A stretch of DNA of 64,000 nt, taken from positions 1 through 64,000 of the forward strand of contig NZ_OBEF01000003.1 of the NCBI RefSeq assembly GCF_900215375.1, in the 5' to 3' direction. This DNA comes from Enterobacter sp. CC120223-11. GTDB taxonomy: Bacteria > Pseudomonadota > Gammaproteobacteria > Enterobacterales > Enterobacteriaceae. Positions 11,822 to 32,244 of this stretch are shown here, piece by piece (position 1 is the first letter of the stretch; each line of letters starts with the position of its first letter). Below the pieces are notes generated by a model that was not told where the DNA came from, made no database searches, and was given only the letters and a program-made list of their open reading frames with translations. Made by a program: the position numbers and the translations under genes.

Positions 11822-13519
11822 TTATGTCAGCAGGCTGGTGGTGGCCGTGCCCGACGTGCGCTGGTTCGGCACGTAAAAAGCAATCTCTGTGCCGGGCTCC
11901 AGGCGACGGATATGCAGTCCTTCGCCGTAAAGCAGCGTCACGCGGTGATGCACGTTAAGCAGGCCGATTTTATTGCCCGGCATTTCGTTGGCTTCGACTC
12001 GCGCAATCACCGCAGGATCGATACCGTGCCCGGTATCCCGCACGCTGATACGCACGCGGTTGCCGCTTTCGGCAATGCTGATGGTCACCACGCCTTTGCC
12101 CTTGCAGGGCTGAATGCCGTGGACGATGGCATTTTCAACCAGCGGCTGGATCAGCAGGCTTGGGATCAGGCAGTTCACCTCATCGTCGATGTCGTAGATA
12201 ACCGTCAGCTTATCGCCAAATCGCGCCTGCTCGATGGCGATGTAGTCCTTGATCTGATACAGCTCTTTGCGGATGTCTATTTGCTCATCGTCCTTCAATT
12301 CAATGTTATAGCGCAGATAGCGTGACAGGTTGAAAATCAGCTGCCGGGCGGTGTCCGGATTGAGACGAATCGAGGATGAGATAGCATTGAGCGCGTTAAA
12401 CAGAAAATGAGGATTAATTTTGCTTTGCAGCGCGCGCAGCTCTGCCTTATTTGCCATTTCGCGCAGCTGTTCGGTGCGTGACACCTCCAGCTGAGTGGAG
12501 ATGATCTGCGACAGGCCGACCGCCATCTCCTGCAACGATGAAGTGATCTGGTGGGCGTGACGGTAATAAATTTTCAGCGTGCCGGTGACGATGCCCTTCT
12601 CCCACAGCGGGATGATGAGCAGGGAATGGATCTCCGGCGTGCGCCAGGCTTCGTCGTCGTTACGGATGATGATTTTACCCTCGCGCAGCGCCTGTTGCGT
12701 GCGCGGGCTAATCCCGGGATCGTTGTGCTTATAATTGGCTTCGCCAACGCCCACGTAGGCCAGCACTTTGTCGTTATCGGTGATGGCAACGGCGTCGGCG
12801 TGAATATCCTGACGAATGATGTCGCACACCTGACGCAGGGATTCGCTGTTCACATTGCGAAACAGCGGCAGCGTCTTGTTAGCGATATCCAGCGCGACTC
12901 TGGCCTGCCGCCCGGCAATGTCCTCTTTTTCTTTTTCCACGCTCTGCACCAGCAGCACGATAAAACCGATGCAGACGCTGCCGAAGATCATTGGCACGCC
13001 GATTTTTGCGACGATATCGAGGCCGAGTGAGATCGTCGGTGCCCAGACCACAACCAGGATCATGGTCAGCGTTTCACACAGCATCCCGCCCAGGATCCCC
13101 GCTCGCCAGTGCTTCTCTTTGGGGATTTTTCGGTTGATCCAGCCCGAAAGCAGCCCGGCAATAATGCTGGTGATAAAGCAGGGCACAGCCGTCACGCCGC
13201 CGATGTCTATCAGGTAACGGTGCGTCCCGGCAATCAGCCCGGTGATGGCCCCGACCCACGGGCCAAAAAGAATGCCGCCGGACATCACCGCGATAATACG
13301 CACGTTGACCAGCGAGCCTTCCACATGCACGCCGGACCAGGTGCTGAATAATGCAAACAGGGAGAAGATCGCCGTAACCGCCAGCAGCTCTTTTGGCGTA
13401 TGGGCGGACTTGTGCAGCAGCTCGCGAAACAGCCGGATGCGGATGAGGAAGAACAGGCAAATCAGCATCAGGGCGGCCCGGTCAAAAACCGCCAACAGCA
13501 TGTTAAAAATTTCGTGCAT
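11822..13519 (-). CDS. ypdA: sensor histidine kinase YpdA (PyrS), LytS family
   Basis: Membrane sensor kinase reported to respond to extracellular pyruvate. An N-terminal 5TMR-LYT membrane module (about residues 1-190) is followed by a GAF-like domain (about 210-350), the dimerisation/phospho-acceptor region with H371 in [14 protein letters not shown], and an HATPase domain with N-box [10 protein letters not shown] and G-box RDTGHGID. The ATG at 13519 (MHEIFNML) gives 565 residues, the E. coli length; the frame is open 21 codons further but without a ribosome site. First gene of a two-gene leftward operon with ypdB, divergent from alaC across 387 bases. Confidence 0.95.
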
Positions 13520-22932: not shown

Positions 22933-23292
22933 GCGGTATCCAGAAGTTAAAAAGTAAAAGCCCGGGATCTTACATCGGACAATGACCAGGACGCAGGTTT
23001 AAATTTAAATATAGGTTTAATATTGGATTTGTTGGGCATGACGGGGGAGGAATGGTGTCCCCTGCAGGAATCGAATAACTGTCTAATTTTATGATATTAT
23101 TGGTTTTATTTTTATCATAAATATCTGGTACCAGCAAAAATACCATCAAGGGCCGTCAGAATGATGATTTTGGGCAAAGCAGGAATGTAATCCAGGAATG
23201 GCAAGACATCATATAGCCGACACTATGCTGTATGAGGCATTGAGCTGTTAATATAGCCGCCCCGAGCATGAAGCTGCGTGTGATGGAGTGAT
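22933..23292. other. Gap spanning the left junction of the argW island
   Basis: 360 bases without a recognised gene. The first part holds the promoter region of the leftward outer-membrane gene. The displaced 25-bp tRNA-Arg end is at 23051-23075. The remainder, inside the island, is AT-rich with nothing else recognised before the nuclease gene. Confidence 0.6.
23051..23075. repeat. Left attachment repeat: displaced 3' end of tRNA-Arg(CCU)
   Basis: The 25 bases are identical to 32168-32192, which form the 3' end of argW (T-arm, acceptor strand and CCA). Bases differ immediately outside on both sides. This is the expected footprint of site-specific integration into the tRNA gene. Confidence 0.88.
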
Positions 23293-24501
23293 ATGACTAG
23301 TAATCATTGGCTGGACCAAATGACTGAGTGGCTCAACGAAGCCCGACAGACGCACCAAAATCGCAACAAAAAAGATGCTGTTGAGTTTAATGTCTTTCGG
23401 TATATCACTGCTGACGAAAATGGTCTTTCACGCATCCTGGCTGACTTGCTCGACGTGCGCGGTGTTCATGGTCAACAAGCTCTCTTTCTCAGCACCTTTC
23501 TGGATTTGATTGGGAAAACCTTATGGGATGCAACGTCTTGTCGGTTTGTTGAGTGTGAACAGCAGACTGATGCCCTGGGCACTAAACGTCGAATTGATAT
23601 CGTCGTACAAGGGGGTCGATGGACACTTGGTATAGAGAACAAACCCAGTGCCGCCGATCAACCCAATCAGGTTTTGGACTATCTCCACGAGCTAAGGAAG
23701 CGCCGCAGCGTACTAAACGAAACGCTACTGATTTACCTGACTCCTGAAGGGAGCAAGCCAACCCCGTTTAGTATTGATGTACACCAATGTGACGCCGCGC
23801 TTCAGTCTGGTGAGCTTGTTCTCCTGTCATATCAAAGCCTCGTCGTTTGGCTTGAAGGACTGTGCAAAAATGATGATATACCTTACCGCTTGCGAGTCTT
23901 TCTATTCGATTTGCAGCGTTTTATTTCGGTGAATGTGCTGAATTGCAGAGAGGGAAAGGTTGTGGATGTTTTGTTAGACAAAATCTTTACTGACGAATCA
24001 ACGCTGGATACTACGTTAAGTCTACTAAGCCTGCAAAATAGCATTTATCAAACGCTGACGAAAAAAGCGACTGCAGATTTGATTCCACCAGCAGGCTGGG
24101 AGGTATGTCGAAAATTATATCCAGATTACGGGATTGGATTGCGTCCACCAGAGGCCATTGGCTGGCACTACTGTATCGAACCTGCCAAAGGGAGTTATCA
24201 GGATTGGAGTTACGGCATCAAGCTGGATGATGCTTCGAATACTACCGAATCAGCCTTGCTGGCTGCGCAACAACTCAAAATAGATTTCCCAACAGGGGCG
24301 AAAGCGAGTGCCTGGTGGCCATGGTGGCGTAGCTTTAATGGATATTTGCCGCATGACCTTGACCCCATTGAATACAGAGATTGGCTTTCGAGTAATCGTG
24401 CATGGCTTGAAATGAACAATGGTGAGTTCTCCAGGCGCTGTGTCGATTTGTTTGTTCGGTTACATGAGTCGGTTAGCCGTAGATGTGGTTCTAACGAATA
24501 A
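23293..24501 (+). CDS. PD-(D/E)XK nuclease family protein (PDDEXK_4-like)
   Basis: A 402-residue cytoplasmic protein with a restriction-like nuclease core: D102 in RRIDIVVQGG and E115-N-K117 in LGIENKP, separated by a short beta hairpin as in PD-(D/E)XK enzymes, followed by a QVLDYLHEL helix. The N-terminal LSRILADLLD segment and the overall order fit the PDDEXK_4 family, often found in defence islands. The C-terminal half is of unknown role. GGAG stands 4-5 bases before the ATG. It lies 100 bases before hsdR in the same direction. Whether it acts with the type I system or alone is not known. Confidence 0.7.
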   Translation: MTSNHWLDQMTEWLNEARQTHQNRNKKDAVEFNVFRYITADENGLSRILADLLDVRGVHGQQALFLSTFLDLIGKTLWDATSCRFVECEQQTDALGTKRRIDIVVQGGRWTLGIENKPSAADQPNQVLDYLHELRKRRSVLNETLLIYLTPEGSKPTPFSIDVHQCDAALQSGELVLLSYQSLVVWLEGLCKNDDIPYRLRVFLFDLQRFISVNVLNCREGKVVDVLLDKIFTDESTLDTTLSLLSLQNSIYQTLTKKATADLIPPAGWEVCRKLYPDYGIGLRPPEAIGWHYCIEPAKGSYQDWSYGIKLDDASNTTESALLAAQQLKIDFPTGAKASAWWPWWRSFNGYLPHDLDPIEYRDWLSSNRAWLEMNNGEFSRRCVDLFVRLHESVSRRCGSNE

Positions 24502-24540
24502 TGGTTTTCCAGTCGTTGCCCAAAACCTCGTTTCAGGTCA

Positions 24541-24568
24541 TTACGTAACGCACTAATCTGTGTAAAAT
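24541..24568 (+). promoter_or_regulatory. Possible promoter for hsdR
   Basis: TTACGT (24541-24546), 16-base spacer, TAAAAT (24563-24568), 34 bases before the preferred hsdR start. A moderate sigma-70 match only. Confidence 0.3.
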
Positions 24569-24601
24569 CAGAGCTAACCCAATATCGTGGAGTGCTCTGC
24601 T

Positions 24602-27043
24602 ATGGCTGGCATAAACAAAGCTCATTTGACTGAAACGGACATCATTACCAAATTCATCCTGCCAGCGGTTAAAGATGCAGGCTGGGACATGATGTCGCAA
24701 GTCCGTCAGGAAGTGAAACTCCGCGATGGTAAGATTGTGGTTCGTGGCAAACTGGCCTCGCGTATCAAAGTTAAGTCTGCTGACATTGTGCTCTACCACA
24801 AACCGAATTTGCCACTGGCGGTGATAGAAGCCAAAGCCAATCAGCACGCCATCAGCAAAGGGATGCAGCAAGGTCTGGACTACGCCAGCCTGCTTGATGT
24901 TCCCTTTGTGTTTGCGACCAATGGCGACGGTTTTGTTTTCCACGATAAAACCAACCCGCAGCAGCTTGAATCAGAAATAACCCTCAGTGATTTTCCAGCC
25001 CCCGAACAGCTTTGGCAGAAATACTGCGTCTGGAAAGGGTTTACTCAGGAACAGCTGCCCGTTATCAGCCAGGATTACTTCGATGATGCCAGTGGAAAAT
25101 CCCCTCGTTATTATCAGATGCAGGCGATCAACCGAACGGTAGATGCTGTATCAGCGGGTAAGAATCGCATTTTGCTGGTGATGGCAACCGGTACGGGCAA
25201 AACCTACACCGCATTCCAGATAATCTGGCGGCTGTGGAAAGCGAAAAACAAAAAACGCATTCTGTTTCTCGCTGACCGAAATATTCTGGTCGATCAGACC
25301 AAACGTAATGACTTCAAGCCATTTGGTTCAGCGATGACCAAAGTTACCGGGCGTACAGTTGACCCCGCTTATGAAGTACACCTGGCGCTGTACCAGGCGA
25401 TCACCGGGCCAGAAGAACATCAAAAAGCCTATAAGCAGGTTGCACCGGATTTCTTTGATCTGATAGTCATCGACGAATGCCACCGTGGCAGCGCCTCTGA
25501 AGATTCTGCCTGGCGTGAGATCCTGGAATATTTTGGCAGTGCCACTCAGATTGGCCTGACGGCAACGCCGAAAGAAACCGAAGAAGTCTCCAGCACTGAT
25601 TACTTTGGTGATCCGGTTTATACCTATTCCCTGAAAGAAGGCATTGAAGATGGCTTCCTGGCTCCGTACAAAGTGGTGCGCGTCGATATCGACGTCGATG
25701 TGCAGGGATGGCGACCGGTTAAGGGTCAGTTAGATAAATACGGCGAAGAGATTGAAGACCGAATCTACAACCTGAAAGATTTTGACCGCACGATGGTGAT
25801 TGATGAACGCACCATGCTGGTGGCGCAGACCATCACCGACTACTTGAAACGTACCAACCCGATGGATAAAACCATCGTCTTCTGCAACGACATCGACCAC
25901 GCAGCCCGTATGCGCCAGGCCTTGGTGGTGCTCAACCCGGAACAGGTGCTGAAGAACGAAAAGTACGTAATGAAAATCACCGGCGATGACGATATCGGCA
26001 AGGCGCAGCTGGATAACTTTATTGACCCCAAAAAAGCCTACCCGGTTATCGCGACAACCTCTGAGCTGATGAGTACCGGTGTCGATGCGCAAACCTGCAA
26101 GTTGGTGGTACTGGACCAGAACATTCAGTCGATGACCAAATTCAAACAAATCATCGGGCGCGGCACGCGTATCAACGAAAAGCACGGCAAGCTGTGGTTC
26201 ACCATTCTCGACTTCAAAAAAGCGACAGAGCTGTTTGCCGACCCACGCTTTGATGGCTTGCCAGAAAAAGTGCTGGTGGTAAAACCTGACGACATTTCGG
26301 ACCCGGCGTCTGATTTTAATGATCAGCTTGATGCGGAAGATAACGTGGATGGCGATGATAACGTCGTCAATGAAGCGCGGGAAGAAGGCGCGGAATACAA
26401 AGTTAATCGTGACCCGCTAAATGGAAATGGTGAATTCCATGACGATGACGAAAACAAAGTCCGCAAATTCTATGTGAATGGTGTGGACGTTAAAGTGTTG
26501 GCGAAGCGCGTTCAATACTACGATGCCGACGGTAAACTGGTGACTGAATCCTTCCAGGATTACACCCGTAAAACAATGCTCAAAGACAGTGAATATGCGT
26601 CTCTGGATAGCTTCGTGCGTAAATGGCAGGAAACGCCACGCAAGCAGGTGATCATTGAAGAGCTGGAACAACTGGGGATCCTGTGGGATGTGCTGGCCGA
26701 AGAGGTGGGAAAAGATCTCGATCCGTTTGATCTGCTCTGCCACGTAGTGTACGGTCAGCCGCCGTTGACGCGCCATGAGCGTGCCGCCAACGTGCGTAAA
26801 CGTAATTACTTCATCAAATATGCCGAACCCGCGCAGCAGGTGCTCAACACGCTGCTGGATAAATACGCTGATGAAGGCGTGAGGGAAATCGAAGATGTGC
26901 AGGTGTTGAAGCTGAAACCCTTTGATTCGCTGGGGCGTCCGATTGAAATCATCAAAACCCGCTTTGGTGACAAACAGGCTTATGAGCAGGCAGTGAATGA
27001 ACTGGAAAACAAAATCTACCAGCTACCGCCGCGCTTCGCCTGA
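24602..27043 (+). CDS. hsdR: type I restriction enzyme motor/endonuclease subunit HsdR (type IB-like)
   Basis: ATP-dependent translocase and nuclease of a type I restriction-modification complex. The N-terminal nuclease core has D61 (SADIVLYH) and E76-A-K78 (VIEAKAN). Helicase motifs follow: Walker A ATGTGKT at 195-201, DECH at 291-294, GLTATP near 320, and QIIGRGTRI near 516. At 813 residues it has the size of type IB (EcoAI) subunits rather than the about 1,030 of type IC. A GTG at 24587 is in frame, but the ATG at 24602 has GGAG 9 bases upstream and is preferred. All motifs look intact. Confidence 0.93.
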
Positions 27044-27060
27044 TACAGCATAAATTTATT

Positions 27061-27098
27061 GCCACCGGCTGCGTCTGCTGTCGGTGGCATCCTTTTTT
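27061..27098 (+). terminator. Possible terminator between hsdR and hsdM
   Basis: GCCACCG (27061-27067) and CGGTGGC (27082-27088) form a 7-bp stem, followed after 4 bases by six T residues. It would uncouple hsdR from hsdMS, which could matter for keeping methylation ahead of restriction. Confidence 0.45.
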
Positions 27099-27115
27099 AA
27101 GAACGGAATAACACC

Positions 27116-28588
27116 ATGTCAATTAGCTCAGTCATTAAATCCCTTCAGGACATCATGCGTAAAGATGCAGGTGTGGACGGCGATGCCCAGCGTCTGGGGC
27201 AGCTTTCATGGCTGCTGTTCTTGAAGATTTTTGATACTCAGGAAGAAGAACTGGAGCTGGAGCAGGATAACTACAGCCTTCCCATCCCAGAACGCTATCT
27301 GTGGCGTACCTGGGCGGCGAACAGCGAAGGGATTACCGGCGATGCGCTGCTGGAATTCGTCAACGACGACCTGTTCCCAAAACTGAAGAACATGACCGCA
27401 CCAATCGACACTAACCCTCGTGGTTACGTGGTCAAGCAGGCTTTCAGCGATGCCTACAACTATATGAAAAACGGCACGTTGCTGCGTCAGGTAATCAACA
27501 AACTTAACGAAATCGATTTCAGTAGTAGTCAGGAACGTCATCTATTTGGCGATATCTACGAGCAGATCCTGCGCGACCTCCAAAGCGCTGGTAACGCTGG
27601 TGAGTTCTATACCCCGCGTGCGGTAACACGCTTTATGGTTAATCGTATAGATCCGAAACTGGGCGAGTCGATTATGGATCCAGCCTGCGGCACCGGCGGC
27701 TTTCTCGCCTGCGCGTTCGATCATGTGAAAGAGCAATACGTTAAAACGACAGAAGACCATAAAACGCTGCAACAGCAGATCTATGGCGTGGAGAAAAAGC
27801 AGCTGCCGCACCTGCTGTGTACCACCAATATGCTGCTGCACGGCATTGAAGTGCCGGTGCAAATCCGTCACGACAACACGCTGAATAAGCCGCTGTCCTC
27901 CTGGGATGAACAGCTGGACGTGATCATCACCAACCCACCGTTTGGCGGCACCGAAGAAGACGGCATTGAGAAAAACTTCCCGGCAGAGATGCAGACTCGT
28001 GAAACCGCCGATCTGTTCCTGCAGCTGATTATCGAAGTGCTGGCCGACAAAGGCCGCGCGGCGGTGGTGTTGCCGGACGGTACGCTGTTTGGTGAGGGCG
28101 TAAAAACCAAAATCAAAAAGCTGCTCACCGAAGAATGCAACCTGCACACCATCGTGCGTTTGCCAAACGGCGTGTTTAACCCGTACACCGGTATCAAAAC
28201 CAATATTTTGTTCTTCACCAAAGGGCAGCCAACCAAAGATGTGTGGTTCTATGAGCACCCGTACCCGGATGGGGTGAAGAACTACAGCAAAACCAAACCG
28301 ATGAAGTTTGAAGAGTTCCAGACCGAAATCGACTGGTGGGGCAACGAAGCTGATGGTTTTGCCAGCCGTGAAGAGAACAACCAGGCGTGGAAAGTCAGCA
28401 TCGGCGACATCATTGCCCGCAACTTTAACCTTGATATCAAGAACCCGTATCAGGGCGAAACCGTCAGCCACGATCCGGACGAATTACTGGCGCAGTACCA
28501 GACACAACAGGCTGAAATCAGCGAGCTGCGTAATCAGCTGCGCGATATTCTCGGGGCCGCGCTGGCATGTAACAAGGGGGCGAACTGA
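27116..28588 (+). CDS. hsdM: type I restriction-modification N6-adenine methyltransferase HsdM
   Basis: Methyltransferase subunit that modifies adenine in the recognition site using S-adenosylmethionine. The AdoMet-binding motif DPACGTGGFL starts at residue 188 and the catalytic NPPF motif is at 273-276, both canonical. An N-terminal helical HsdM_N domain occupies about 1-130. At 490 residues it matches type IB subunits (EcoAI about 489). The start lies 72 bases after the hsdR stop, beyond a possible terminator. Its TGA overlaps the hsdS ATG by one base (TGATG), so M and S are translationally coupled. Confidence 0.95.
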   Translation: MSISSVIKSLQDIMRKDAGVDGDAQRLGQLSWLLFLKIFDTQEEELELEQDNYSLPIPERYLWRTWAANSEGITGDALLEFVNDDLFPKLKNMTAPIDTNPRGYVVKQAFSDAYNYMKNGTLLRQVINKLNEIDFSSSQERHLFGDIYEQILRDLQSAGNAGEFYTPRAVTRFMVNRIDPKLGESIMDPACGTGGFLACAFDHVKEQYVKTTEDHKTLQQQIYGVEKKQLPHLLCTTNMLLHGIEVPVQIRHDNTLNKPLSSWDEQLDVIITNPPFGGTEEDGIEKNFPAEMQTRETADLFLQLIIEVLADKGRAAVVLPDGTLFGEGVKTKIKKLLTEECNLHTIVRLPNGVFNPYTGIKTNILFFTKGQPTKDVWFYEHPYPDGVKNYSKTKPMKFEEFQTEIDWWGNEADGFASREENNQAWKVSIGDIIARNFNLDIKNPYQGETVSHDPDELLAQYQTQQAEISELRNQLRDILGAALACNKGAN

Positions 28589-30333
28589 TGACCGTTGAGA
28601 AGCTTATCACCGACCATATAGATATCTGGTCTTCCGCGCTGCAAACCCGCTCCATGGCCGGGCGTGGCAGTAACGGCAAAATCGACCTCTATGGCATTAA
28701 GAAACTGCGCGAGCTGATTCTGGAACTGGCGGTGCGTGGCAAACTTGTGCCGCAAGACCCGAATGATGAACCGGCGTCTGAGTTATTGAAACGTATTGCT
28801 GTCGAGAAAGCGGAGCTGGTGAAGCAGGGGAAAATTAAAAAGCAGAAGCCGCTGCCGGAAATTAGCGAGGATGAGAAGCCATTTGAGTTGCCGGTGGGGT
28901 GGGAGTGGGTACGTCTTGCAGAGGCATTTGATGTACGGGATGGAACACATGATACTCCTAAATATCAAATTTCAGGTTACCCGCTGGTAACTAGTAAAAA
29001 TCTATCTTCAGGAAGACTTGATTTAAGTGATATAAAATACATTAGTGAAGAAGATTATAAAAAAATAAATGAGCGTTCATTTGTAGAACGTGGTGATGTT
29101 CTTTTTGCAATGATTGGCAGCATTGGAAACCCTGTAGTCATTGATATTGATGATGAATTTTCCATTAAAAATGTCGCATTATTTAAATACTATAAAAAAG
29201 AACTCTCTCAGCCATATTTTCTAAAAAACGTACTTGAAGCACTCTCAGTAAACCTTAAAATCGCCTCATCTGGTGGAGTACAACCATTTGTTTCACTTGG
29301 CGCTCTTAGAAATATAGTTATTGCATTTCCTCCTTTAGAAGAACAAAGGAGGATAATGATGAAGTTGTCGGAATTAATGTCCCTCTGCGACCAACTGGAA
29401 CAGCAATCCCTGTCCAGTCTGGATGCCCACCAGCAATTGGTAGAAACCCTTCTGGCAACGCTAACTGATAGCCAAAATGCCGAAGAACTCGCCGAAAACT
29501 GGGCGCGAATCAGTCAACACTTCGACGCGCTGTTTACCACCGAAGCGAGTATCGACACGCTGAAGCAAACCATTCTGCAACTGGCGGTAATGGGTAAACT
29601 TGTGCCGCAAGATCCAAGCGACGAACCCGCTTCTGAACTGCTTAAACGTATTGAGCAGGAAAAAGCGCAACTGGTGAAAGAAGGAAAAATAAAAAAACAA
29701 AAACCGTTGCCGCCAGTGAGTGAAGAAGAAAAAAATGTTGTGCTGCCAAATGGATGGATACAGGCACGAGTGGATGATGTTTTTAATATTATTGTGGATT
29801 GTCCTCACTCAACGGCTAAGTTTGTAGAAAAGGGGGTGTTATGTATTGACACTAATACATTTAAAAATGGCAGGTTAATTAATGATAAATTCCGTTTTGT
29901 TTCATATGATACTTATAAAGAACGTGTTTTGAGACTGGAGCCTATAGCTGGAGATATTGTTTTTGCGCGAGAAGGAAGTGTTGGTGAGTCAGTTGTCATT
30001 CCGGATGATTTAAAGTGTTGTCTTGGTCAGCGAGTTATGTTGTTGCGCCCATCCCCAAAAATGAATTCAGAATTATTAAGATATTTATTGTCGTCCAAAA
30101 AAACTTTAGAGGAATTGTTGTCACTTCATAAGGGCATTGGTGCAAAGCATGTAAATGTAAAAGATATAAAAAAACATGTTATTGCATTACCGCCAGAAAA
30201 TGAGCAAAACAGGATCTTAGTTAAGATCAATGATATGTATGTTTTATGCGATCAACTCAAATCCCGTCTGCAATCCGCCCAGCGAACCCAACTCCACTTG
30301 GCGGATGCGCTCACAGAAGCAGCATTAAACTAA
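28588..30333 (+). CDS. hsdS: type I specificity subunit HsdS, two target-recognition domains
   Basis: DNA-recognition subunit of 581 residues (EcoAI-type HsdS about 589). It consists of two half-subunits, each made of a conserved element (GKLVPQDP.DEPASELLKRI...KIKKQKPLP, near residues 52-92 and 337-377) followed by a variable target-recognition domain (about 111-251 and 391-540). The variable parts are strikingly AT-rich compared with the conserved parts, a sign of recombinational exchange. At the DNA level the 17-mer AAACTTGTGCCGCAAGA occurs at 28741 and 29596. The recognition sequence cannot be read from the sequence. Ribosome site AAGGGGG precedes the start. Confidence 0.93.
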   Translation: MTVEKLITDHIDIWSSALQTRSMAGRGSNGKIDLYGIKKLRELILELAVRGKLVPQDPNDEPASELLKRIAVEKAELVKQGKIKKQKPLPEISEDEKPFELPVGWEWVRLAEAFDVRDGTHDTPKYQISGYPLVTSKNLSSGRLDLSDIKYISEEDYKKINERSFVERGDVLFAMIGSIGNPVVIDIDDEFSIKNVALFKYYKKELSQPYFLKNVLEALSVNLKIASSGGVQPFVSLGALRNIVIAFPPLEEQRRIMMKLSELMSLCDQLEQQSLSSLDAHQQLVETLLATLTDSQNAEELAENWARISQHFDALFTTEASIDTLKQTILQLAVMGKLVPQDPSDEPASELLKRIEQEKAQLVKEGKIKKQKPLPPVSEEEKNVVLPNGWIQARVDDVFNIIVDCPHSTAKFVEKGVLCIDTNTFKNGRLINDKFRFVSYDTYKERVLRLEPIAGDIVFAREGSVGESVVIPDDLKCCLGQRVMLLRPSPKMNSELLRYLLSSKKTLEELLSLHKGIGAKHVNVKDIKKHVIALPPENEQNRILVKINDMYVLCDQLKSRLQSAQRTQLHLADALTEAALN

Positions 30334-30343
30334 GGAACAGACG

Positions 30344-31438
30344 ATGCCGGTTCATCATGCTATCTGGCAGGTAGGTGAGAATCCTCAGCCGCTGACCATC
30401 AGTAAGCTCGCCAGTGAAAAACTGCTGCAGAAGATGATTATTCAAGATCCGTCCATACTATCCGATCAGTGGATGATTATTGGTGAGGAGGTCAATACGC
30501 TCGACAGCGGGCGTATCGATTTGTTGGCTATCGCGCCGGATGCCTCGCTGATCCTGATTGAACTGAAACGTGATCGAACGCCGCGTGAGGTAGTCGCGCA
30601 GGCACTGGATTATGCCTCTTGGGTGGATGACTTAACCGCCGATCGCCTCTCGCAGATCTATGAAAAATTCTCTGGTGGCAATCTTGGTGACGCATTCAGA
30701 CAGCGCTTCAACGCTGAACTCGAAGACGACGTTATCAACAAGTCACACCAAATAATCATCGTCGCGGCGGAGCTGGATCCCTCCACTGAACGCATCGTCG
30801 ACTATCTGAGTAAATACGGAATCTCGATTAACGTGCTGTTCTTCAGGGTGTTCCAGCATGGAGATGAGCAGTTCTTAAGTCGCACCTGGCTTATCGACCC
30901 GAGTGAGACACAAACCAATGCCGCACAGGCTACTGCCACCGGCGCTAGTGCCAAAGAACCCTGGAACGGTGAGTTTTACGTTTCGTTTGGTGATCCACAA
31001 AGTCGGGTCTGGGAAGAGGCGCGTCGCTACGGTTTTATCAGCGCAGGTGGCGGAAGTTGGTATAGCCAGACTTTAAAGCAATTACAGCCAGGCAACCGCG
31101 TCTGGGTGAAAATTCCGGCAACAGGTTATGTCGGTGTCGGCATAGTACAGAGCGCCGTTGAACCTGCCAGTAGTTTTACGATCGACACCGATAACGGTGA
31201 AAAGCTGGCGATGGACGTACTCAAGTTTGGCGACTGGTATCGCGAAAATGCCGACGATCCCGACAAATCAGAATATTTTGTTCCTGTGAAATGGCTTGAA
31301 ACCCGCAGTGAACAACAGGCGGTGAATGAGGTCGGGTTCTTTGGCAATCAGAACACAGTGTGTAAGCCTACCACGCCAAAATGGCGTCATACGGTTGATA
31401 AACTAAAGCGTAGCTTCTCCCGTTGGAACGCAGAGTGA
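30344..31438 (+). CDS. PD-(D/E)XK nuclease-like (DUF91/NucS-like) protein with C-terminal PUA/EVE-like domain
   Basis: A 364-residue protein starting 10 bases after hsdS with a good ribosome site (AAGGA). The N-terminal half has a nuclease core: D59 in GRIDLLAI, E73-L-K75 in LIELKRD and then REVVAQALDYASWV, as in DUF91/NucS-type nucleases. The C-terminal half (about 210-310) carries a segment with RVWEEARRYGFISAGG, LQPGNRVWVKIP and GYVGVGIV, which looks like a small beta-barrel of the PUA/EVE type; such domains in restriction systems can read modified bases. The domain call for the C terminus is tentative. Co-transcription with hsdS is likely; it could be a separate defence nuclease. Confidence 0.65.
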   Translation: MPVHHAIWQVGENPQPLTISKLASEKLLQKMIIQDPSILSDQWMIIGEEVNTLDSGRIDLLAIAPDASLILIELKRDRTPREVVAQALDYASWVDDLTADRLSQIYEKFSGGNLGDAFRQRFNAELEDDVINKSHQIIIVAAELDPSTERIVDYLSKYGISINVLFFRVFQHGDEQFLSRTWLIDPSETQTNAAQATATGASAKEPWNGEFYVSFGDPQSRVWEEARRYGFISAGGGSWYSQTLKQLQPGNRVWVKIPATGYVGVGIVQSAVEPASSFTIDTDNGEKLAMDVLKFGDWYRENADDPDKSEYFVPVKWLETRSEQQAVNEVGFFGNQNTVCKPTTPKWRHTVDKLKRSFSRWNAE

Positions 31439-31477
31439 TCTGAGCAAAAGTATGTGTAAATCGTACCGGAGAAAAGT

Positions 31478-31909
31478 ATGACCACAGCAACAATAGGACA
31501 GTTGGCGGTAGTGCAAAAACTCAAGAGCCTCGGGGCAAGCAATGTTGTCGCTCAGAAAGAAGGCAATAAACCGTTTATCACATTTATTGCCCCAAACGGT
31601 AAAACGTACAAAGTGACGACCAGAGCCAAAACGGCAGGAACCTGGCAAACATCAACCCGCTACGGAATTGAACGTGCTGTTGATAAAAATGGCAGTGAGT
31701 TTTGGGTATTTATAGATCTGGGCCGGGAGCCTAATGCTTTCTATATCACGCCGCTCTTCTGGATCATGAATGATATTCATCAGGCTCATCTGGATTATCT
31801 GGGTAAGCATGGCGGACACCGTGCACAAAATGATGAGTCAACACATCATGCCATTTCAGTGAAACGTATTGCTGGCTGGGAAGATTGTTGGGAGCAAATG
31901 GGATTTTAG
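31478..31909 (+). CDS. island protein of unknown function, 143 residues
   Basis: Starts 39 bases after the previous gene with GGAG 6 bases before the ATG. The sequence has the look of the small restriction-endonuclease-like proteins found on integrated elements: a LGREPNAFYITPLFWIMND core, a conserved GKHGGHRAQNDESTHHAI stretch, and a closing RIAGWEDCWEQMGF. No complete PD-(D/E)XK motif can be read, so catalytic activity is doubtful. It is the last gene before argW. The function is not known. Confidence 0.6.
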   Translation: MTTATIGQLAVVQKLKSLGASNVVAQKEGNKPFITFIAPNGKTYKVTTRAKTAGTWQTSTRYGIERAVDKNGSEFWVFIDLGREPNAFYITPLFWIMNDIHQAHLDYLGKHGGHRAQNDESTHHAISVKRIAGWEDCWEQMGF

Positions 31910-31912
31910 TAG

Positions 31913-32156
31913 CAAAGGTTGTTGTAAATACATCTTTGATATGAGCGTGCCAGAAAGCTTCATGATGTCGTTCCCATTCTCCGGCAAGGATGCCAGCGAG
32001 AAATTTCCCAATCTGTACATCATCCGACCATTCCACTTGCTTTGAAGGTCTACAGCCATAAATGGCACCACTCAAGAGGCAATTGAAAACTGTGTAAGAG
32101 TGATGGTTGCTGAAAGGGTTGGTATTGCTGGTGTTATGAAACGAACTGAAGTGGTG
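31913..32156 (-). pseudogene. possible gene remnant between the last island gene and argW
   Basis: Read leftward from just after a TGA near 32156, one frame stays open and looks protein-like (TVFNCLLSGAIYGCRPS, then KFLAGILAGEWERHHEAFW) before running into the antisense of the neighbouring gene. No ATG or ribosome site suits it and no family was recognised. It may be the debris of a former island gene; chance is not excluded. Confidence 0.25.
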
Positions 32157-32167
32157 TGAAATATCTC

Positions 32168-32192
32168 AATGGTGTCCCCTGCAGGAATCGAA
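32168..32192. repeat. Right attachment repeat within argW
   Basis: 25 bases identical to 23051-23075; here they form the functional 3' end of the tRNA gene. Confidence 0.88.
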
Positions 32193-32244
32193 CCTGCAAC
32201 TAGCCCTTAGGAGGGGCTCGTTATATCCATTTAACTAAGGGGAC
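32170..32244 (-). tRNA. argW: tRNA-Arg (anticodon CCU)
   Basis: A complete 75-base tRNA gene read leftward: 5' GTCCCCTTAGTTAAATGG, anticodon CCU encoded at 32211-32209 within CTCCTAA, T-arm GGTTCGATTCC and an encoded CCA. It corresponds to E. coli argW with few changes, one G-C pair change near the acceptor end and one in the stem after the anticodon. It reads the rare AGG codon. It neighbours yfdC as in E. coli and is the insertion site of the defence island. Confidence 0.95.

Follow-up and report, generated by a model that had tools for sequence, protein, structure and literature searches.

In Enterobacter sp. CC120223-11, a 9.1-kb island of restriction and nuclease-type genes lies beside the tRNA gene argW, enclosed by two copies of the same 25-bp sequence and with no integrase among its genes, and this arrangement raises the question of how such a block reached argW and whether it can still leave. 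A first-pass annotation of the window (the whole stretch of 64,000 nucleotides analysed here) had offered two answers, namely that the island is a decayed element or that it is a block of cargo moved in trans by another element that uses argW. The evidence set out below makes it highly probable that the island began as a satellite-like integrative element with its own tyrosine integrase, which entered argW and was later immobilised by at least two deletions.

Boundaries and gene content of the island

The sequence at 23051-23075 is identical to that at 32168-32192 at 25 of 25 bases, and the next base differs on both sides, just as the first-pass annotation had described. Across the 64 kb of the window this pair is the sole direct 25-mer repeat, and each of the six direct 20-mer repeats found there is part of it; by simple arithmetic, the chance expectation for a 25-bp repeat is about 2e-6. 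ARAGORN places an intact argW, tRNA-Arg(CCU), on the minus strand, so that the right copy covers the 3' end of argW and reaches two bases beyond it (Table 1). The 7-8 bases directly to the left of the left att copy resemble those to the left of the single copy in two congeners, G001 and G002, and the G+C content is 0.478 inside the island as opposed to 0.564 in the rest of the window.

Table 1. Features of the argW island, in positions of the window
Position	Strand	Feature	Basis
23051..23075	.	Left att copy, 25 bp, outside tRNA gene	Identity to 32168-32192
23129..23148	+	Left putative arm-site pair, TACCAGCA-N4-TACCATCA, one substitution relative to relatives	Distance and sequence
23293..24501	+	PD-(D/E)XK nuclease, PDDEXK_4, PADLOC candidate PDC-S26, 402 aa	Pfam/PADLOC
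24587..27043	+	hsdR, EcoAI/FtnUII-family type I restriction subunit, 818 aa	Profile matches
27116..28588	+	hsdM, type I methyltransferase subunit, 490 aa	PF02384 and HsdM_N
28588..30333	+	hsdS, specificity subunit, 581 aa, two target-recognition stretches	Methylase_S
30344..31438	+	NucS_C-like candidate nuclease, PADLOC PDC-S11, 364 aa	PADLOC match; Pfam just under cut-off
31478..31909	+	143-aa protein, no family; last cargo gene in several relatives	Relatives; predicted fold
31910..32050	.	Region 3' of the 143-aa gene, common to G308 up to the deletion joint	Alignment
32051..32068	-	Integrase stub, first six codons (VPFMAV); left edge is the joint of the ~7.24-kb deletion	Alignment to relatives
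32078..32086	.	Joint of the 75-bp deletion, GGCAATTGA; in G308 two GGTAATTGA copies 75 bp apart	Alignment to G308
32087..32167	.	Integrase-proximal island end, retained	Alignment to argW tails
32168..32192	.	Right att copy, 3' end of argW	Identity and ARAGORN
32170..32244	-	argW, tRNA-Arg(CCU), intact	ARAGORN

The island has six long genes, all on the plus strand, and a profile built from six integrases finds no match adjoining argW in the window, so that the earlier description of genes running in one direction with no integrase is borne out. With family names taken from PADLOC, Pfam and NCBIfam, HsdR matches the EcoAI-family profile NF046051 at 1177.6 bits (cut-off 550), and hsdM stands next to a two-domain hsdS, as expected of a type I system of the EcoAI/FtnUII family. 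The PD-(D/E)XK nuclease gene was found just as 3' stubs in two of the islands compared (L029 and L054). The 364-aa nuclease candidate matches PADLOC candidate PDC-S11 at E = 1e-163 and NucS_C at 22.8 bits, slightly below the Pfam cut-off of 24, and its structure prediction has a mean pLDDT of just 32. No family match was obtained for the 143-aa protein at E <= 0.001, and Pfam searched up to E 10 yielded nothing useful; its predicted fold weakly resembles tRNA-splicing endonucleases, which gave the best PDB match at E = 0.03, and since the AlphaFold model is itself middling (mean pLDDT 69.9) a nuclease-like reading of this protein is weak. The proposal that the island holds restriction or nuclease-type genes alone is thus not established for the 143-aa gene.

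The integrase stub and the two deletions

The six codons at 32051-32068 are placed and oriented like the intact integrase gene that the same island carries in G004, G006, G308 and Escherichia coli. They read VPFMAV on the minus strand where relatives have VPLMAI, and bases 32048-32086 of the window align to the integrase start of four relatives (L029, L030, L075 and L077) at 82-88%. Beyond the stub, 32087-32167 is 75-85% identical over 56-81 bases to L029, L030, L054, L075, L077 and L085, and it is unmatched at E <= 1e-4 in the remaining argW tails compared; this right tail is common to islands of this integrase family and to G067 alone.

When the junction was searched for in 392 family genomes, G308 was the best outside relative among the matches listed. 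Its island has the nuclease candidate, the 143-aa gene without an ankyrin gene, a primase-type gene, p290 and a 428-aa integrase that is 93% identical to the integrase of G004. Window bases 30269-32058 and 32048-32086 match G308 at sites about 7.2 kb apart, between which lie the primase gene, p290 and the integrase gene: the window tracks G308 up to 32050 and picks up again within codon six of int, and 7,241 bases of G308 are absent between these points. In comparison with G308, a deletion of about 7.24 kb has therefore taken the primase gene, p290 and nearly all of int, with 4-5 bases of microhomology at the joint; this size is an estimate, since the closest relative differs by part (G067 for hsdR and the first half, at 91% DNA identity, and G308 for the right part, at 85%), the island is thus a mosaic and G308 is no direct ancestor. 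A second loss relative to G308 comprises 75 bp between two 9-bp direct repeats (G308 18362 and 18437), of which the window retains one copy. The comparison set has one genome per species and includes no integrase-bearing strain of the species of the window.

The 75-bp deletion bears on a further feature of these islands. A TACCATCA-N4-TACCATCA pair begins 132 bases before argW in all six of the integrase-bearing islands with hsd or nuclease-candidate cargo that were scanned (L029, L030, L075, L077, L085 and L143), and it is this right, integrase-side pair that the 75-bp deletion has removed from the window. The left pair is retained, 74 bp from the start of a 21-bp att core, at a distance equal to that in L029, L030, L059, L077 and L117, and no other place in the 64 kb comes within one mismatch of the motif; L085 has the left pair as well, and an att copy so degenerate that the att scan does not pick it up. 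L117 (G318) is a different argW island, which has a relative of the DUF927-type primase and no hsd genes, and its TACCATCA pairs at both ends indicate that the pairs are independent of hsd cargo. By analogy with KplE1 at argW, as set out in the cited account (PMC2951348), the pairs are probably arm sites of the integrase. If they are, loss of the integrase-side pair would hinder excision even where an integrase is supplied in trans.

Taken together, the island would have passed through an intact form ordered as in its relatives, with the left att, the restriction cargo, the primase genes, the integrase, the right att and argW. A deletion of about 7.24 kb would then have removed the stretch from about 140 bp past the 143-aa gene to codon seven of int, and the 75-bp deletion between 9-bp direct repeats would have taken the integrase-side TACCATCA pair, leaving a remainder like a cis-mobilizable element (CIME), with both att cores, one arm-site pair and no recombinase. 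We infer that the island is no longer able to excise. Some observations run against decay, in that the large joint has little microhomology and perfect att cores would also suit an element moved in trans. The stub, on the other hand, indicates that the loss was a deletion in an integrase-bearing form, and with relatives that carry the same island and an intact integrase beside argW it upholds the first of the two answers given by the first-pass annotation.

argW in the genus and in other genera

The argW-yfdC order is matched in all seven genomes of the genus, the genome of the window included. In G001 and G002 the order is yfaZ-argW-yfdC, with one copy of the repeat and no island, and yfaZ lies about 0.5 and 1.4 kb from argW. 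The first-pass annotation had expected empty sites with one repeat and direct contiguity from the nfr side to yfdC; the single repeat and the missing island agree with this expectation and the nfr side does not, as nfrB, which adjoins yfaZ in the window, is not beside yfaZ in the stretches from the four congeners with yfaZ near argW. Integrase fragments adjoin argW in G003, no such fragments were found at argW in G005, and neither has yfaZ in the argW stretch examined. G004 (L029) and G006 (L030) have the same restriction cargo at argW together with primase-type genes and an integrase reading frame of 428 and 455 aa, respectively, that adjoins argW, which are the very relatives, with an intact integrase between the last cargo gene and argW, that had been suggested as a check. 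The empty sites and the integrase-bearing relatives together favour an inserted element. One contig placed in the genus by the genome search (L074, G006:C9) comes from a record titled Chryseobacterium sp. 18061, where a problem of labelling or mixture is likely.

Outside the genus, some match to the island DNA was found in 38 of the 295 family genomes searched, and 15 of the best places besides G006 were compared. In five of these, argW is in the stretch (L054, L059, L060, L061 and L067), two are near tRNA-Arg(UCU), one is near selC, one is near the tmRNA gene and six are near no tRNA gene in the stretch. Ten loci with hsd genes at argW, a biased sample in that they were gathered by different searches, have a full integrase in four cases (G004, G006, G308 and G388) and none in six (G000, which is the genome of the window, G067, G025, G070, G192 and G200). 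Three routes of loss are visible among them. The window has the six-codon stub left by deletion. In G067 (L054, ~12045-13268 of the reverse complement), the place of the primase-integrase segment, from the end of the 143-aa gene to the right tail that is still present, is occupied by a sequence that we take to be IS3-like. In G025 (L059, G025:C47; Buttiauxella agrestis), an argW flank with 93-95% identity to the one in its congener G254 joins onto the last part of the 143-aa gene. A 174-bp copy of this join, at 94% identity, is also present to the left of the left att in G025, so that it stands at both ends of the integrase-less hsd island.

A different remnant has been preserved in G308:C1 (L077/L078), where two hsdRMS sets lie in tandem, the inner on the att-bounded, intact, integrase-bearing island and the outer to its left. 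The outer HsdR is 92% identical to that of the window. Past the outer hsdRMS come the first ~48 bases of the nuclease candidate, followed by ~230 bases whose counterpart in L136, L139 and L140 is the end of a different argW element, a place occupied there by a full-length integrase. These ~230 bases encode ~24 residues like the start of the L139 integrase (58%, E = 2e-5), and the L139 integrase itself shares 59% identity with the integrase of L076 and 41% with the G004 one. A native argW flank for the sequence between the outer hsd genes and the left att was considered and is ruled out by the end of the other element and its integrase stub. By these L139-like residues the outer set, an eleventh hsd locus, is recognised as an integrase-less remnant that ends in the stub of a different integrase family and forms a tandem with the intact island beside it.

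Sixty further argW regions, a non-random set picked from the listed matches of the junction search, of which one at a contig start and many others were passed over, and with several of the sixty truncated by contig ends, have no integrase match in 41 cases, a full-length integrase in 13 and fragments in six; hsd cargo is present in one of them (G388), with an integrase, and an integrase-less island like that of the window in none of the 60. In E. coli, the nuclease candidate is present in 8 of 5,426 genomes and the 143-aa gene was matched in at least five, with an integrase at argW in both of the two examined; two E. coli genomes with the nuclease candidate elsewhere have hsdRMS and another integrase, and no argW in their stretches. 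The junction query matched 23 plasmid records, and the best 15 of the 23 match argW and its near surroundings only. Integrase losses like that of the window do occur at argW in other genera, and the G308 case too leaves an integrase stub. Loss of the integrase at argW may, as a tentative proposal to which we give somewhat less than even weight, be a recurrent route from a mobile restriction element to a fixed resident defence locus.

Three other histories were weighed against in situ decay. The deletions may have taken place in another lineage, with the integrase-less island arriving afterwards by homologous recombination through the argW flanks, as a mosaic whose parts are closest to different genera could suggest, and as could the 143-aa gene region, which is 92% identical to that of G200, a genome of a different genus in which it also lies near argW without an integrase. 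G200, however, lacks both the deletion joint and the right tail of the window, and in the junction search of 392 genomes the two sides are ~7.3 kb apart in G308 and no other genome among the matches listed spans the joint, so that we consider this history unlikely.

The second answer of the first-pass annotation, that an integrase supplied by another argW element still moves the island in trans, fares worse and is very improbable. In its favour, the two 25-bp cores match perfectly, the left pair differs by a single substitution, and argW integrases are common, as the 13 full-length examples in the 60 surveyed regions attest; the genome of the window (G000) itself has 13 matches to PF00589, with long open frames among them, such as one of 460 aa on C37. 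Against these points, the integrase-side pair found in six of six integrase-bearing islands is deleted, the stub marks the loss as a deletion in an integrase-bearing form, and none of the 60 surveyed regions has an integrase-less version of the island. A search of the same genome with the G004 integrase protein, moreover, found no intact member of the island's integrase family and returned two pieces only (C27:44528-44973), one of them with stop codons.

That the hsd genes are an ancestral argW-side locus with an incidental repeat, which L060 and L061 of another genus might suggest because their hsdRMS genes lie near argW and neither an integrase nor arm pairs were found there, is scarcely credible for the window, where it is contradicted by the stub and the island-free congeners, by the perfect repeat and the conserved left end and arm position, and by the occurrence of these genes, in other genomes, next to tRNA genes other than argW or to tmRNA genes.

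Conserved restriction genes and related elements

The dN/dS ratios of the window against G067, G308 and G004 (NG86), which are rough because dS is near or above 1 in many comparisons and which cover whole lineages and not just the period after the deletion, are 0.04-0.10 for hsdR, 0.025-0.035 for hsdM, 0.04-0.06 for the NucS_C-like candidate nuclease, 0.10-0.21 for the 143-aa gene and 0.33-0.43 for hsdS. HsdS is 45-54% identical to that of relatives where it is near full length, as opposed to 84-96% for the HsdM of those islands, a contrast that reflects turnover of specificity. With intact frames and low dN/dS in the type I system and its companion nuclease, the island is most likely a resident defence locus whose restriction genes are still functional, to judge from their sequences.

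Among known systems, the closest in description is the CIME, an element that has lost its integration genes, has kept both att sites and occurs in tandem with intact elements, and that is presented in the cited text as a remnant of conjugative or mobilizable elements (PMC5704250). The window island has likewise kept both att sites (25 of 25 bases), has of its integration gene the six-codon stub alone with no profile match at argW, and has in G308 a counterpart arranged in a CIME-type tandem. It differs in that it appears to derive from an integrase-primase, satellite-like element and that one putative arm-site pair is also gone; a Pfam scan of 10 proteins from L029 and L030 showed no relaxase. 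The island thus fits the CIME description except for an origin that is apparently satellite-like rather than conjugative.

The argW islands of E. coli NMBU-W12E19 and QDFD216 share with it the nuclease candidate, the 143-aa gene, the site and the integrase family (the NMBU-W12E19 integrase is 95% identical to that of G004) and differ in having the integrase, a TOPRIM/DUF927 gene and an ankyrin gene, and in being truncated on the left by IS1; neither the capsid-control genes psu, sid and delta nor cos are annotated in these two islands. A P4-type integrase and primase-helicase are absent from the window, and its relatives carry Toprim_3, zinc-ribbon primase and DUF927 or D5-type domains, where D5-type, beyond the Pfam name, is our own reading. 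The P4-like satellites, as described in the cited paper, are alike in the tyrosine integrase by a tRNA gene, the Toprim/zinc-ribbon primase (in the intact relatives of the island) and the defence cargo, which in P4 lies between psu and int, whereas in the argW islands it lies beyond the primase genes from int (PMC9122126). KplE1 (CPS-53) of E. coli K-12, with intS at argW, is alike in its tRNA target, in an int gene by argW and in arm-type sites near the int promoter, as far as the cited accounts describe it (PMC2951348, PMC3509656). It is different in that phage genes take the place of restriction genes and IntS is 32% identical to the island integrase. Integrase-only defence islands of E. 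coli are similar in having defence genes and unclear means of movement, and they carry an integrase where the window copy is without even that, as they are presented in the cited report (PMC10121019). Other argW islands are listed in a paper that mentions argW in passing (PMC7545054), and none of the literature titles and abstracts covered, with subscription journals mostly outside their scope, concerns this argW restriction island.

The window island clearly exemplifies a kind of decay that is already known, and its value lies in evidence at the level of the joints, where a defence island can be followed in sequence as it loses mobility stepwise while its restriction genes stay conserved. It also carries the caution that integrase-less islands with perfect repeats are not automatically to be taken as mobilised in trans. 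With intact, empty and differently decayed argW sites side by side, the comparison set serves the question of whether restriction genes are retained once their carrier has become immobile.
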